A DNA stretch of 44,603 nt. It comes from Paramuribaculum sp. GTDB taxonomy: Bacteria; Bacteroidota; Bacteroidia; Bacteroidales; Muribaculaceae. The stretch is from the NCBI GenBank assembly GCA_029060545.1, contig JAIDTT010000017.1, positions 1-44,603 on the forward strand, given 5' to 3'. This document shows, one piece after another, positions 1 through 4,497 of this stretch. The notes under the pieces were generated by a model, which saw only the letters and a list, made by a program, of their open reading frames with translations, had not been told where the DNA came from and ran no database searches. The position numbers were made by a program, and so were the translations under genes. Every line of letters starts with the position of its first letter. The first letter of the stretch is position 1.

Positions 1-108
1 GGGTCACTATTGTTACATCTGCATCAAAGGTTTCCTACGACCATCAACAAAGACGTGGCATAGTGGGCTCACGTTTTTATTGACTTTAGGAAGAATAAAC
101 TAATCGAA
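1..108. other. Left edge, possible tail of an upstream gene
   Basis: No gene can be assigned here. Two forward frames are open from the window edge and stop at about 61 and 81, so either could be the last 20-26 codons of a gene cut off by the window. Neither tail is recognisable. The 25 bases before the ATG at 109 are AT-rich, which fits Bacteroidetes translation starts. I see no strict TAnnTTTG box, so the promoter of the following cassette may lie outside the window. Confidence 0.3.
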
Positions 109-1758
109 ATGACATCATTTATAGGAAATATTGAAACATTTATGCCCAGTTCAAGGAACGAAAGCGCATTTGAAACTCTCTTTCATGAATATGAAAGAGT
201 GATTATTCAAAGTCTCATTTCTTCATTTGGATTGGATTTTATAGTTAGGGATCAACATGGTGGAGATGTTGATACAATCCATAATGTGCGTAAAATTGGG
301 ACTGATGACAAGATGCATTATAAGGATTCCGCTAATGAACAGGCATACAGAAACCGTGGAGGATATGATGGGGTGACATATCATAGTGATAGGCGTTTTG
401 CTGATAAAAAGGCTGCTGCCAGACAAGATTACAATAACCATGGAACTTTGATACAAGATGCATACACTGGACAAAATCTAGAATACACAAAGGCCTCGGC
501 GGTTCCTAAAGACCGGCGAGTCGAACTTGATCATGTCGTCGAATGTAAGGCTATTCATGATGACAGAGGACGAGTATTATCTGGAATAAGTGGCGTTGAT
601 CTTGCGAATCAAGATGACAACTTAGCTTGGACTAACAAGAGCCTTAATGCTTCAATGGGCGCATGGGCTCGTGGAGTAAATGATAAGTATAAGAGAGAGC
701 ATGGATGCGATGCACCAATGGATATGGTTGACATGGAGGCCTACGTTCGTGCGCATCCCGATTTGAAAGAGCAGACAGTCAATAACATGCGCGCTCAATA
801 TGCACAGTCACGAACAGCTTATGAACAACGTATCAGTTTCGGATATTATACCAGTTCATCATTTATGAAAGCAACAACCAAGGCTTCTGCAAAGGTTGGC
901 TTCAAAATGGGACTAAGACAAGCTTTAGGGGTAGTGTTTAGTGAAATATGGTTTGCAGTACGTGATGAGATTAAATTGGCAAAAAGTTCTTCTCAAAGTC
1001 TTCTTACTGCAATAGGTAATGCTATAAAACGTGGTTATGAAAACTCAAAGACTCGATATAAAGAAATTTGGAATCAATTTATCAGCGGCTCCATCGCGGG
1101 AGTCTTTTCATCGTTAACCACAACGATTTGTAATATTTTTTTCAGTACTGCTAAAAATATAGTCCGGATATTACGTCAATCTTGGGCCTCCTTAGTCGAA
1201 GCTGCAAAAATATTGTTTTTCAATCCAGACTGTCTACCGGTTGGTGAGAAGTTTCGTGCTGCATCAAAAATAATAGCAACAGGTGCATCGGTAGTTATTG
1301 GATCTCTGATTGGTGATATGATACAAAAAACAGGAATAGGTGCAATTCCAGTGGTTGGAGAAATTGCGACAGTGTTTTGCTCATCTCTTGTTACAGGCAT
1401 AATGAGCTGCACCCTTCTGTATATGCTTGATCATAATTCGGCGATAAACAAGCTCATAGACATCCTCAATAAGATCCCATCTGTAGCTAATTATGTTGCC
1501 TATTTTAGACAACAGGCCGCCTTATTAGATGAATATGCAGCTCGGCTCTTTGATATTGATTTAGCATTATTCAGAGCCGAGACATCCTTGTATGTTTCTA
1601 CGTTGTCTAAACTTGAATGTGTCTCTAATCCTATTGAGATGAACCGAGTCCTACGAGACGTGTATTTTAATAAGTTTAAGTTCAGTTCTCCGTTTGGCAG
1701 GTATGATAATATTGACAGCTTTATGTCTGATCGGTCTGCTGTTTTAACATTTTCGTAA
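109..1758 (+). CDS. HNH-like nuclease domain protein with C-terminal membrane segments
   Basis: First gene of a three-gene cassette. Residues 138-181 read as an HNH-like (His-Me finger) core: VELDHVV with Asp141-His142, His150 in KAIHDD, then LANQDDNLAWTN with Asn171 and a final Asn180. The third metal-site residue is uncertain. Residues about 385-440 are hydrophobic and Gly-rich (IIATGASVVIGSLIGDMI, then a second stretch to LLYML), which suggests two membrane helices or a pore hairpin. Residues 240-370 are amphipathic and basic. No signal peptide is visible. The stop overlaps the next ATG (TAATG at 1756-1760), so the two genes are translationally coupled. Codon use is AT-rich, unlike the genes to the right, which suggests horizontal transfer. 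A nuclease domain joined to a membrane module suggests a toxin- or defence-type effector. That role is inferred; I do not recognise a named family. Confidence 0.6.
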   Translation: MTSFIGNIETFMPSSRNESAFETLFHEYERVIIQSLISSFGLDFIVRDQHGGDVDTIHNVRKIGTDDKMHYKDSANEQAYRNRGGYDGVTYHSDRRFADKKAAARQDYNNHGTLIQDAYTGQNLEYTKASAVPKDRRVELDHVVECKAIHDDRGRVLSGISGVDLANQDDNLAWTNKSLNASMGAWARGVNDKYKREHGCDAPMDMVDMEAYVRAHPDLKEQTVNNMRAQYAQSRTAYEQRISFGYYTSSSFMKATTKASAKVGFKMGLRQALGVVFSEIWFAVRDEIKLAKSSSQSLLTAIGNAIKRGYENSKTRYKEIWNQFISGSIAGVFSSLTTTICNIFFSTAKNIVRILRQSWASLVEAAKILFFNPDCLPVGEKFRAASKIIATGASVVIGSLIGDMIQKTGIGAIPVVGEIATVFCSSLVTGIMSCTLLYMLDHNSAINKLIDILNKIPSVANYVAYFRQQAALLDEYAARLFDIDLALFRAETSLYVSTLSKLECVSNPIEMNRVLRDVYFNKFKFSSPFGRYDNIDSFMSDRSAVLTFS

Positions 1759-2003
1759 TGTTTAGCTGTGATAAGTGCGGTGAATGCTGCAAACATCTTC
1801 ACTTGAGTTCTTTGTATGCAGACTTAGATCGAGGCGATGGAGTATGCAAGTATCTTGTCAACAATTTATGTAGTATCTACCAGAATAGACCTATAAAATG
1901 CAGAATTGATGAGTCATACAAGCTATATTTCAGAAAAATCTATTCTCTTGAAGAATTCTATAAAATTAACAAAATAATTTGCAATAAACTAAAACAGTTA
2001 TAG
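1758..2003 (+). CDS. Small YkgJ-like cysteine-cluster protein
   Basis: This 81-residue protein begins with a CxxCxxCC cluster (Cys4, Cys7, Cys10, Cys11), followed by Cys30, Cys38 and Cys48. The last lies in NRPIKCR, which matches the RPxxCR signature of the YkgJ/CxxCxxCC zinc- or iron-sulfur-binding family. It is shorter than many relatives and looks like the bare cluster domain plus a charged helix. The start overlaps the upstream stop by one base and the next gene begins two bases after the stop, so it sits in the middle of one transcript. Its job is unknown. Metal binding is expected from the family, and a role in maturing or sensing for its two partners is inference. It could not act as a lone housekeeping gene in this arrangement without the neighbours being expressed too. 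Confidence 0.65.
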   Translation: MFSCDKCGECCKHLHLSSLYADLDRGDGVCKYLVNNLCSIYQNRPIKCRIDESYKLYFRKIYSLEEFYKINKIICNKLKQL

Positions 2004-2005
2004 AT

Positions 2006-3037
2006 ATGCCATTACCATTAATACTTGGAATTGCAGCAGCCGTCGCTGGTGTAACTGGAGTAGGTCTTGGTATCAAAGGTGCCGTTGACATGGCGGATGC
2101 CAATGATACACTTAATAAGGCTAAGAAGCGTGACGAAGAAAATCTCAAACGTCACAAAAACACAGAAACTCGCACTCTTAAAATCATGGATGAGTTGGGT
2201 GCAGCAGAGATAAATGCTCTAAAGAATCTAGATAGTTTCTCAAAACTTTTCGAGAAAATTCACAATAAGCCTAAGTTCGAAAAAATCCTAGGGACTAATG
2301 TCAAGATTACTCCTTTTACTCCCAATGAGCTTAATAACGCATCTGTCGGGGCAGCGGTTCTTGCAGGAGGACTTGGCGGTGCCGCTTTAGGTACTGCTGG
2401 TGGTTTCGCTGCTGCAAGTGCTACGACTGCTGCTGTTATGGCTCTTGGCACAGCTTCGACTGGCACAGCAATTTCGACGCTCAGTGGTGTTGCTGCCACT
2501 AACGCGACATTGGCAGCATTGGGTGGAGGCTCATTAGCAGCTGGTGGTGGAGGAATGGCTCTAGGTACTACGATTCTTGGTGCATCCACTTTAGGGGTAG
2601 GACTTCTTGTAGGCGGTATCATCTTTAGCCTGTCTGGCAGCTCAATCAATAACAAAGCAGATAAGGCTCATCAGCAAATGTTAGATAACGAGAAGAAAGT
2701 TAATACTATCTGCCAGTTCTTGGATGAACTACACACTGCAGCTTCCTCATATCTTAATACATTCCGTAGAGTAGTTACGATTTATAACCACTATCTTTCC
2801 AAGATGCGTCGTATCATAGAAGTAACCCACTCTACCAATCCAAATTGGAATCTGTTCTCATATGAGGAGAAGAAAACCATAGAGAATACTGTTCTTTTGG
2901 TTGGCGTAATCTACAACATGTGTAAGGTCAAACTAGTGTTATCCGATGGTGGAAAGGATGTCAATCGAGTTAATAACTTAGAAATTGGCAAAGCCACTAA
3001 TATGGCAAAAGACACCATCGCTTCTATTGATTTATGA
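2006..3037 (+). CDS. Glycine-zipper membrane protein with flanking coiled coils
   Basis: Third gene of the cassette, 343 residues. Residues 3-26 form a Gly/Ala-rich hydrophobic helix (ILGIAAAVAGVTGVGLGI). Residues 30-95 are charged and helical (DANDTLNKAKKRDEEN), likely coiled coil. Residues 113-211 are almost entirely Gly, Ala, Ser, Thr and Leu, with GxxxG repeats such as MALGTASTGTAISTLSG and GGGSLAAGGGGMALGT; this is a long glycine zipper able to insert into or span the membrane. Residues 215-300 are helical again. I recall proteins with this MALGTASTGTAI-type core as widespread but poorly described. The architecture resembles pore-forming or membrane-remodelling proteins, so a membrane effector is a fair inference. 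The base composition is AT-rich like the two upstream genes, and a hairpin at 3036-3067 follows directly. Confidence 0.6.
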   Translation: MPLPLILGIAAAVAGVTGVGLGIKGAVDMADANDTLNKAKKRDEENLKRHKNTETRTLKIMDELGAAEINALKNLDSFSKLFEKIHNKPKFEKILGTNVKITPFTPNELNNASVGAAVLAGGLGGAALGTAGGFAAASATTAAVMALGTASTGTAISTLSGVAATNATLAALGGGSLAAGGGGMALGTTILGASTLGVGLLVGGIIFSLSGSSINNKADKAHQQMLDNEKKVNTICQFLDELHTAASSYLNTFRRVVTIYNHYLSKMRRIIEVTHSTNPNWNLFSYEEKKTIENTVLLVGVIYNMCKVKLVLSDGGKDVNRVNNLEIGKATNMAKDTIASIDL

Positions 3038-3067
3038 TTCTACATTAAAATCATATATTGTAGAATC
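3036..3067 (+). terminator. Hairpin closing the three-gene cassette
   Basis: GATTCTACA at 3036-3044 is the exact inverse of TGTAGAATC at 3059-3067, with a 14-base AT-rich loop. It starts inside the stop codon of the glycine-zipper gene. There is no strong T-run after it, so termination is likely but not certain. Confidence 0.45.
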
Positions 3068-3111
3068 TCAATATAATTCCATAGAAACTTTACTGTGAGT
3101 TAGTACACACA

Positions 3112-3151
3112 AACGCCACCGATTAAGTCTCCCGCATCTCTCGGTGGCGTT
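3112..3151 (-). terminator. Stem-loop ending the leftward operon
   Basis: AACGCCACCGA (3112-3122) pairs perfectly with TCGGTGGCGTT (3141-3151) around an 18-base loop. Read on the - strand it is followed by TTTGTGTGT, so it fits an intrinsic terminator for the operon that runs from 11353 down to about 3157. It lies tail-to-tail with the hairpin that ends the + strand cassette. Confidence 0.6.
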
Positions 3152-3156
3152 ATTCG

Positions 3157-3273
3157 TTAGTGTAATTGTGGCCCTTTGCGGCGTTGCTTGGCTTTTTGCT
3201 CGTCTCGATAGCGGTGAAGGGCTTCGTCAATGCTGAGACCGGGATGACGGCTCAACCACAGTTTGAAAAGCAC
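3157..3273 (-). CDS. Possible 38-residue basic protein
   Basis: A short open frame starts at GTG (3271-3273) and stops at TAA (3157-3159). The product is VLFKLWLSRHPGLSI followed by DEALHRYRDEQKAKQRRKG, an amphipathic helix with a strongly basic tail. It is in the same frame as the preceding gene, separated from it by that gene's TAA and two codons, and the stem-loop at 3112-3151 follows immediately. The reading looks protein-like and the terminator placement fits a real last cistron. It might instead be the old C-terminus of a longer gene or a chance frame. No family recognised. Confidence 0.3.
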   Translation of the reverse strand: MLFKLWLSRHPGLSIDEALHRYRDEQKAKQRRKGPQLH

Positions 3274-3279
3274 CGGTAG

Positions 3280-4497
3280 TTAATGCACGAGGGCTTTGGT
3301 GGTGCGGGAGCCGCGGCGGATGATGTAGAGGCCGGGGGTGAGGCGGTGGCTGGTGACTTTCACGCCCTGAAGGTTATAGTATTCTGCAGGTTCTTCTCCG
3401 ACGGTGATGGTCTCTATGCCTGCAAGCCCTTCATTCTCGTCGATATATGTGATCCGGATGCTGCCGCAGCGACAGTAGTCGCTGAATACGAGCGTCAATC
3501 GGTTTACGATCCCGTCGTCGGGCGCATTCCATGTCTTGTCAATCAATGCCGATGCGCCCAGATTTGTGCTAACGGACGCGTCTAAATTATTGTAATACGT
3601 GGCATTAGCATTGCCTTGCAGAAATTTCACTTCGAGCAGTCGGCATCCGTCTTTAACCGTCGTAAACGTCATTGTGTTGTCGGGATTAAGTCGTAACTCC
3701 GGGCTGATTGTGTTAGATTCCCACCATCGGGGCGTGATGCTGCCGTCGGCTTTTGAAAGGCTTACGCACACATCGCCTACTTCAAATACTGCGCCGTCCA
3801 AATTATTTGTGCCCGATTCTGCGTATTCACTGCCGGAAGCAATGGTGCCATCATTCGAATAAGCTGCGACAATACACTCTTTATCAGTGAAATCAAGTGT
3901 CCCGCAATGCTTACCCTCAACCTCCTCCTCCGGTACAGGAAAGTATTTCAGTGAGTTTACGGAAAAGACTCCTTCCGACGATACCTTCGGCATCTCGACA
4001 CTTAGCCGATAATACATATTCCCTGCAGGGGCGGCAACGGGGATTGAGATAGTGACCGCAGTCCCCGTGGAGGTGGGTAGTCCTGAAATATCGGCCGGAT
4101 AAGAGGTCGCGTTGCTCATATCCGCATTGGGCGACACGAGCAGCGACATCGACGTCATCCTGTTGGTTGACCCGGTTTTATACCGACTTACCTCTACGTC
4201 GACGCTGCCTATCGGATCGGTTATCGCAAAGTCGGTAGTGATCGTTGCGGTTGTCGCGCCGGTTTTAGCGCCACAACGGATGTTATCCCAGGCGCTGTTG
4301 TTGTTATTAAAATTTTTTGCAGTCCAAGTCCGGCCACTTGTGCGGTCGATCAACTTAAACTCCTTATCATACCCGGTGACGTACGATCCTTGATTGGCGA
4401 TCTTGGTGGCAATCACCACAACCGGATCTTGTGCCGATGCGCGGGTCGACGCAAAAGAAATAATTGTCAATAGCAGGAGGAGTGATAATCGTGGCAT
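3280..4497 (-). CDS. Secreted protein with sorting-like C-terminal tail
   Basis: This 405-residue protein has a clear signal peptide (MPRLSLLLLLTIISFASTRA, cleaved near ASAQ). Its C-terminus reads AEYYNLQGVKV ... LTPGLYIIRRG ... TKALVH. That matches the YxLQGxxV...PGLYI..G pattern of secretion tails related to the type IX (Por) sorting domain that is common on Bacteroidales exported proteins. The middle is beta-rich, with SVDVEVSRYKTGS-like strands and repeated Thr/Ser/Asn, suggesting one or two beta-sandwich domains; no enzyme motif is visible. It follows pyrC after 30 bases on the same strand and is probably the last large cistron of the operon. It probably acts at the cell surface or outside the cell, with an unknown binding role. 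Confidence 0.7.
   Translation of the reverse strand: MPRLSLLLLLTIISFASTRASAQDPVVVIATKIANQGSYVTGYDKEFKLIDRTSGRTWTAKNFNNNNSAWDNIRCGAKTGATTATITTDFAITDPIGSVDVEVSRYKTGSTNRMTSMSLLVSPNADMSNATSYPADISGLPTSTGTAVTISIPVAAPAGNMYYRLSVEMPKVSSEGVFSVNSLKYFPVPEEEVEGKHCGTLDFTDKECIVAAYSNDGTIASGSEYAESGTNNLDGAVFEVGDVCVSLSKADGSITPRWWESNTISPELRLNPDNTMTFTTVKDGCRLLEVKFLQGNANATYYNNLDASVSTNLGASALIDKTWNAPDDGIVNRLTLVFSDYCRCGSIRITYIDENEGLAGIETITVGEEPAEYYNLQGVKVTSHRLTPGLYIIRRGSRTTKALVH

Follow-up and report, generated by a model that had tools for sequence, protein, structure and literature searches.

What does a compact run of three genes do at the very start of a contig from Paramuribaculum sp. (Muribaculaceae), and how is it controlled? 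The stretch analyzed here, the window, comprises the 44,603 nucleotides of contig JAIDTT010000017.1 (GenBank assembly GCA_029060545.1), and the cassette at positions 109 to 3,037 encodes three proteins designated A, B and C. A preliminary description had read it as an undescribed defence or conflict module, a reading that is supported in part. The present analysis identifies the cassette as a credible, conserved defence candidate whose functional steps we infer from sequence, and the recurring three-gene unit is probably an anti-phage system candidate. Unexpectedly, a family of structured leader RNAs was also found upstream of gene A; this family is better supported than the defence role of the cassette and is the most novel part of this report. 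The features are as follows.

1 to 108, + strand: 3' half of the structured leader RNA; the contig start truncates it close to the apical hairpin tip, as placed by alignment with relatives
109 to 1758, + strand: gene A, 549 amino acids, a predicted HNH core followed by a hydrophobic C-terminal part
364 to 702, + strand: HNH segment of A, with D141, H142, N171 and N180 invariant
1084 to 1431, + strand: hydrophobic part of A (about residues 326-441) by hydropathy and alignment, with possible membrane segments
1758 to 2003, + strand: gene B, 81 amino acids, CxxCxxCC (YkgJ-type) metal-binding family
2006 to 3037, + strand: gene C, 343 amino acids, a hydrophobic N-terminus, a long helix, a Gly/Ala-rich centre and a second long helix
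2339 to 2635, + strand: Gly/Ala-rich centre of C, holding its most conserved motif, ASTGT.I..L.G.A..NA..AA.GGG..A.GG
3036 to 3067, + strand: inverted repeat just 3' of C, 9-bp stem
3112 to 3151, + strand: second, stronger hairpin, 11-bp stem

The layout is as compact as had been described, since A and B share one base, B and C are separated by two bases, and the coordinates agree. The AT-richness was borne out as well: the G+C content is 0.401 in the cassette and 0.555 in the remaining window, and none of 387 other segments of 2,929 bp was equally low. The closing hairpin proved to be two, at 3036-3067 and 3112-3151; a terminator scan of positions 1-3400 called three sites, neither hairpin being among them, and a sequence resembling the 3112-3151 hairpin was seen by eye 3' of C in loci L006 and L007. 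The window's genome holds a single copy of the cassette. Because the contig begins at window base 1, the known sequence upstream of A amounts to 108 bases, and the upstream side of the cassette is incomplete, cut within the leader RNA.

Conservation of the trio was read in 20 close-family loci (the window, L006-L014, L021, L022, L025-L029 and L035-L037), a count that leaves aside L090, in whose stretch A is incomplete, as well as the distant relatives L015-L017, L019 and L030-L034. C lay within the gene run of A in all 20 loci, either immediately preceding A or following B. In 18 of them B, the CxxCxxCC protein, came immediately after A, among these L010, where B runs past the record end, and L026, where it comes after a frameshifted A. 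The genes run A-B-C in the Bacteroidota copies, as well as in L006 (binned as Clostridia) and the Clostridioides difficile locus L009; the Pseudomonadota copies have C-A-B. The linkage across distant genomes that the preliminary description had proposed to look for therefore holds in Bacteroidota, Bacillota and Pseudomonadota, with A and C together also in jumbo phages; homologues occurring singly and never linked, which it had named as counter-evidence, are not what these loci contain.

Larger collections gave the frequency of the genes. DNA matching C and A together was present in 379 of 5,426 E. coli genomes (368 covering at least 80% of the query), at 411 places, all of them chromosomal, and DNA matching B in 373 of the same 5,426, the two lists being compared as totals and not genome by genome. 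A or a distant variant of A occurred in 69 of 72,556 plasmid records; C was found in 40 plasmid records with the E. coli protein as query and in one with the window's C. Seven of 50,697 phage records carry A (four Aeromonas jumbo phages), and C was found in the same number of records; scans of viral contigs returned no relative, despite the seven Aeromonas phage records that hold A and C. The scan of genome contigs gave three relatives (L006-L008), the A profile matched 3 of 395 Bacteroidota genomes and the C alignment 2 of 395, in each case including the window's own genome and one weak match, and the A protein was found in 2 of 198 host-family genomes, namely the window's own and one with a distant variant. 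In L006, A is 93% identical to that of the window, the contig is binned as Clostridia and transposase-like frames lie adjacent by eye, which would reflect either transfer or mis-binning. The phage C and A genes without B (L021, 5949-8545; L022, 4949-7545) lie a few genes from a YadA-like gene.

The character of A rests on four residues. An aspartate-histidine pair followed by two asparagines is the catalytic pattern of HNH nucleases, as in Cas9, and D, H, N and N are the sole invariant columns of A across 18 relatives. When the HNH segment profile of A was aligned by hhalign to Cas9-type HNH_4 domains from host-family genomes, the probability was 91.9 to 94.9 at a score of 44; 200 column shuffles reached at most 16.4 and the reversed profile 13.9. 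The family profile thus supports an HNH nuclease core in A, as predicted from sequence. No Pfam family matched A above its cut-off, and the HNH matches were below the Pfam cut-offs too. In its C-terminal part, hydrophobic stretches rich in Gly come close to the threshold for membrane segments. Of the nuclease core with membrane segments originally described, the core was upheld by sequence, and the membrane part is so far hydrophobic and near threshold. The names that public records give to A, 'cobalamin adenosyltransferase' and 'ATPase', agree with no Pfam family above cut-off; the Pfam BPD_transp match to A (0.041) and the phage tail matches, at best 0.005 for A and 0.00091 for C, were set aside as composition noise. 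Against PDB sequences, A alone gave one chance match (E 0.59), and the A and B profiles gave none up to E 5.

B matched Pfam CxxCxxCC (PF03692) at 27.8 bits against a cut-off of 23, with the cysteine pattern present in the alignment, and its description as a YkgJ-like cysteine protein is upheld. To our knowledge, proteins of this family have no established function. In C, the N-terminus is hydrophobic and long helices flank a conserved Gly/Ala-rich centre, according to hydropathy, alignment and a weak AlphaFold model; these features agree with the glycine-zipper part of its earlier description, and a membrane location is what they suggest. The C profile gave 38 matches to PDB sequences, mainly helical or coiled-coil proteins, the best (0.0041) being a designed filament. 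Fold searches with the weak model of C returned resemblances, cytolysin A (ClyA) among them, that are within noise. The public-record name 'chemotaxis protein' for C agrees with no Pfam family above cut-off.

The setting of the cassette is mobile and in part rich in defence genes. Among the first 12,000 bases compared, similarity between the window and L007 is confined to the cassette (window 7-3035), and the sequence shared with L006 extends to window base 3236. The leader core of L007 has a tRNA gene about 430 bases upstream of it. Each of the five E. coli regions opened (L025-L029) is an island with an integrase, and in four of the five a tRNA is annotated beside it (three tRNA-Phe, one unspecified). 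PADLOC profiles were run on ten chosen neighbour proteins from hand-picked loci, with no background rate, and identified type I restriction in L027, a cytosine methyltransferase in L026 and the candidate PDC-S26 in L012. SngA, SngB and SngC of Shango share an E. coli island with the cassette (L028, 5438-11262), so that known defence systems, type I restriction and Shango, occur in two of the five islands. A WYL regulator precedes the genes in several copies, by annotation in L009, L010 and L011 and by a Pfam match in L010.

Distant variants of A occur in other company. In the window's own genome (L015, 8445-12425, contig C44), one precedes genes for a coiled-coil protein and an AAA ATPase, possibly a second system. 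Plasmid-borne distant variants (L030-L034) have other glycine-rich or coiled-coil proteins as neighbours and in one case follow a WYL gene, and TerB-like parts in them are suspected by eye only. A small stand-alone HNH-like protein beside a glycine-rich protein (L019, 1483-1920) is perhaps a split form of A.

Our tentative first choice, held at somewhat less than even confidence, is that the cassette is a mobile, accessory anti-invader module, most likely anti-phage, in which A is a membrane-associated HNH nuclease with C and B as partners. C would be a membrane scaffold or sensor that contacts and works with A, and B a small partner protein that binds metal or Fe-S and either matures or gates A; the trigger may be incoming foreign DNA or a membrane disturbance sensed by C, whereupon A would cut nucleic acid, its presumed target, at the membrane and so protect the cell. 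Such a membrane-nuclease defence fits carriage on plasmids, islands and phages, the WYL gene before several copies and the defence neighbours in two of five islands. The codon changes in A between the window and L007 (154 synonymous, 42 non-synonymous) are counted on the same side.

Several observations weigh against this reading. The nuclease assignment draws on the whole family, because an HNH profile from the window and L008 rows alone gives a probability of 5; the window's A also has NASM where most relatives have NxSK, and GmrSD_C, tried as the nearest HNH family to A, had weak Pfam hits but only 1.7 in hhalign. The hydropathy of A is borderline, and A of L011 has no segment above threshold. 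Neither the HNH fold nor membrane helices could be seen in three dimensions, because the AlphaFold model of A is unusable (predicted local distance difference test, 46; predicted template modelling score, 0.39). The two exceptions to B following A are the Aeromonas jumbo phage loci L021 and L022, in which a different protein follows A, so the phages do without B. As to the setting, 3 of the 10 neighbour proteins had no PADLOC match, P fimbriae adjoin the cassette in L025, and the neighbours in the window and in L007 are mostly housekeeping-like by eye. The expected proximity to known defence genes was found in some copies (L027 and L028), and the choice of loci weakens what the neighbourhood appears to indicate.

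Other functions would account for parts of the same evidence. In abortive infection, C and the C-terminal part of A would insert as a pore on triggering, killing the infected cell, with further damage from the nuclease; we regard this alternative as rather unlikely. Slightly less credence is given to competition between elements, by which the module would help its carrier exclude rivals, with any benefit to the cell secondary. The carriers are indeed plasmids (with the 69 records noted above, distant variants included), integrase islands and jumbo phages, but every one of the 411 E. coli places is chromosomal, and any mobile defence system would be expected to show the same picture.

A metal or envelope stress response akin to Ter systems, rather than defence, is a distinctly unlikely explanation. 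It draws on the metal-binding family of B, on a TerB-like gene that separates B from C in L008 (20.3 bits, short of the Pfam cut-off of 24.4), on an annotated TerB gene before C in the Vibrio copy L011, and on the Ter operon that adjoins the cassette in L029; however, a TerB gene lies within the cluster in just 2 of 20 loci, and an HNH nuclease would be odd in such a role. Ter systems have themselves been linked to biological conflicts, according to passages of PMC7824862. A secreted toxin with immunity proteins would also combine a nuclease core with hydrophobic parts, and an SMI1/KNR4 gene precedes one distant variant of A and a hemolysin secretion gene lies downstream of the L014 copy. Nevertheless, the nuclease core lies in the N-terminal half and is conserved across phyla, and the annotated regions viewed contain no secretion or immunity gene that accompanies the trio repeatedly; this explanation is very improbable.

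How the cassette is controlled is suggested by the leader RNA. A conserved leader upstream of A is complete in L006 (428-680), L007 and L008, and the intact form of the window's copy presumably resembled these relatives. Its folding exceeds that of shuffled sequences (z -6.29 in L006, -5.49 in L007, and -2.61 in L008, where 3 of 200 shuffles were as good). Other instances of the element precede unrelated genes in the window's genome (L082, 1480-1715, z -6.02; L083, 1480-1720), and further copies were collected as L090-L119. A covariance model built from five copies, with a capped number of candidates per genome scored, matched at least 189 of 247 host-family genomes in 27 of 30 genera, and at least 10 of 295 genomes in the class, four of them strong and of the same order and six outside the order and weak (E 7e-6 to 2e-9). 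The leader of L008, from a metagenome-assembled genome named Rikenellaceae, scored 105 bits; the model had no match in the truncated copy of the window. Rfam searches up to E 1 gave the element no match: L006 and L001 were searched without any match, and L082, L083, L007 and L008 gave a cobalamin riboswitch and a tRNA elsewhere, with one sub-threshold match on that tRNA. In the main texts of PMC11109978 and PMC8632094, the strings Bacteroid, Muribacul and Rikenell are absent.

The structure was examined in 30 leader loci, which are the best-scoring copies and not a random sample. Across 30 distinct sequences, 94.3% of cells pair in an alignment that was fitted to the model and is hence biased towards its structure, and changes on both sides of a pair numbered 101 compared with 37.8 (standard deviation 6.0) in shuffles. 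Four of five covariation measures beat all 500 shuffles; the fifth, further pair types, gave 49 compared with 49.0 (314 of 500 shuffles) and does not support the structure. Structures slid along the alignment pair at most 51.2%. Near-duplicates (L097, L112 and L118) were dropped from the stricter-limit scan and from the promoter, pseudoknot and reading-frame counts, L090 was dropped from the stricter-limit scan too, and the stricter limit excluded six weak opposite-strand matches. A pseudoknot after the core is less clear. A helix of at least 6 was present in 24 of 29 copies, but a length of 6 was also attained with swapped partners in 63% of cases; the sum under permutation (0 of 2000) is supportive. 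L008 was left out of this test, its first strand being unrecognised, and two cassette copies, L006 and L090, have no such pseudoknot. The 5' end of the L006 leader can pair over the start of A, and in L090 a local 5' hairpin competes.

The consensus promoter of Bacteroidota is TAnnTTTG, and this box is found no more than 120 bases upstream of the core in 29 of 30 copies; the distance is 43-50 bases in 26 of them, compared with 46 of 753 background stretches. An ATG frame of at least 60 codons starts at most 83 bases after the element in 26 of 27 copies tested, and a simple rule finds a signal- or membrane-like start in 17 of these 26 frames, whose products are mostly small (median 168 amino acids, some frames being cut by the stretch). 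Because of the fixed promoter spacing, the nearby downstream frames and their often signal- or membrane-like starts, the leader looks like a cis-regulatory element of accessory, often exported proteins, under which the cassette has come. In the Bacteroidales copies, it would control the A-B-C operon. That an undescribed leader RNA family has captured an HNH, CxxCxxCC and glycine-zipper defence module, one coherent system, and makes it switchable is a possibility that we hold with more doubt than belief. If the leader reading is correct, members of a gut-bacterial family commonly carry a new regulatory RNA family, and direct tests could then address what this RNA senses.

The leader shares with riboswitch-type leaders the plan of promoter, folded leader and gene, and differs from them in having no Rfam match and no known ligand. 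HNH_4 (Cas9-type) and GmrSD_C domains share with A the D-H...N...N layout, often with a YTG motif before it, whereas A has a longer stretch from DH to the first N and is joined to a hydrophobic region. Among PF03692 proteins of the YkgJ/YcgN type, the Bacteroidota and Clostridioides copies are 60-91% identical to B; the difference here is that B is a fixed neighbour of A. SNIPE, or Zorya and Kiwa, are membrane-placed nuclease defences, and the likeness would lie in acting on DNA at the membrane; no model of the three matched the cassette in the PADLOC search.

The closest known relatives are two PADLOC candidates. A corresponds to PDC-M40B at 1e-40 and C to PDC-M09A at 1e-33, and the E. coli and phage relatives of A and C match the same models; no PADLOC model matched B. 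No paper naming PDC-M40 or PDC-M09 was found in a literature search that covered few subscription papers and preprints. The preliminary statement that no named system has this trio agrees with that search and needs amendment in one respect, as PADLOC lists A and C as separate candidates. If the anti-phage reading is true, the system spans E. coli, Klebsiella plasmids, a Clostridioides plasmid, gut Bacteroidales and jumbo phages, and offers nuclease residues ready to mutate. PDC-M40 and PDC-M09 are separate, unproven entries whose component profiles match A and C strongly, whereas here A and C form one gene run with B; the two candidates would then merge into one testable system.
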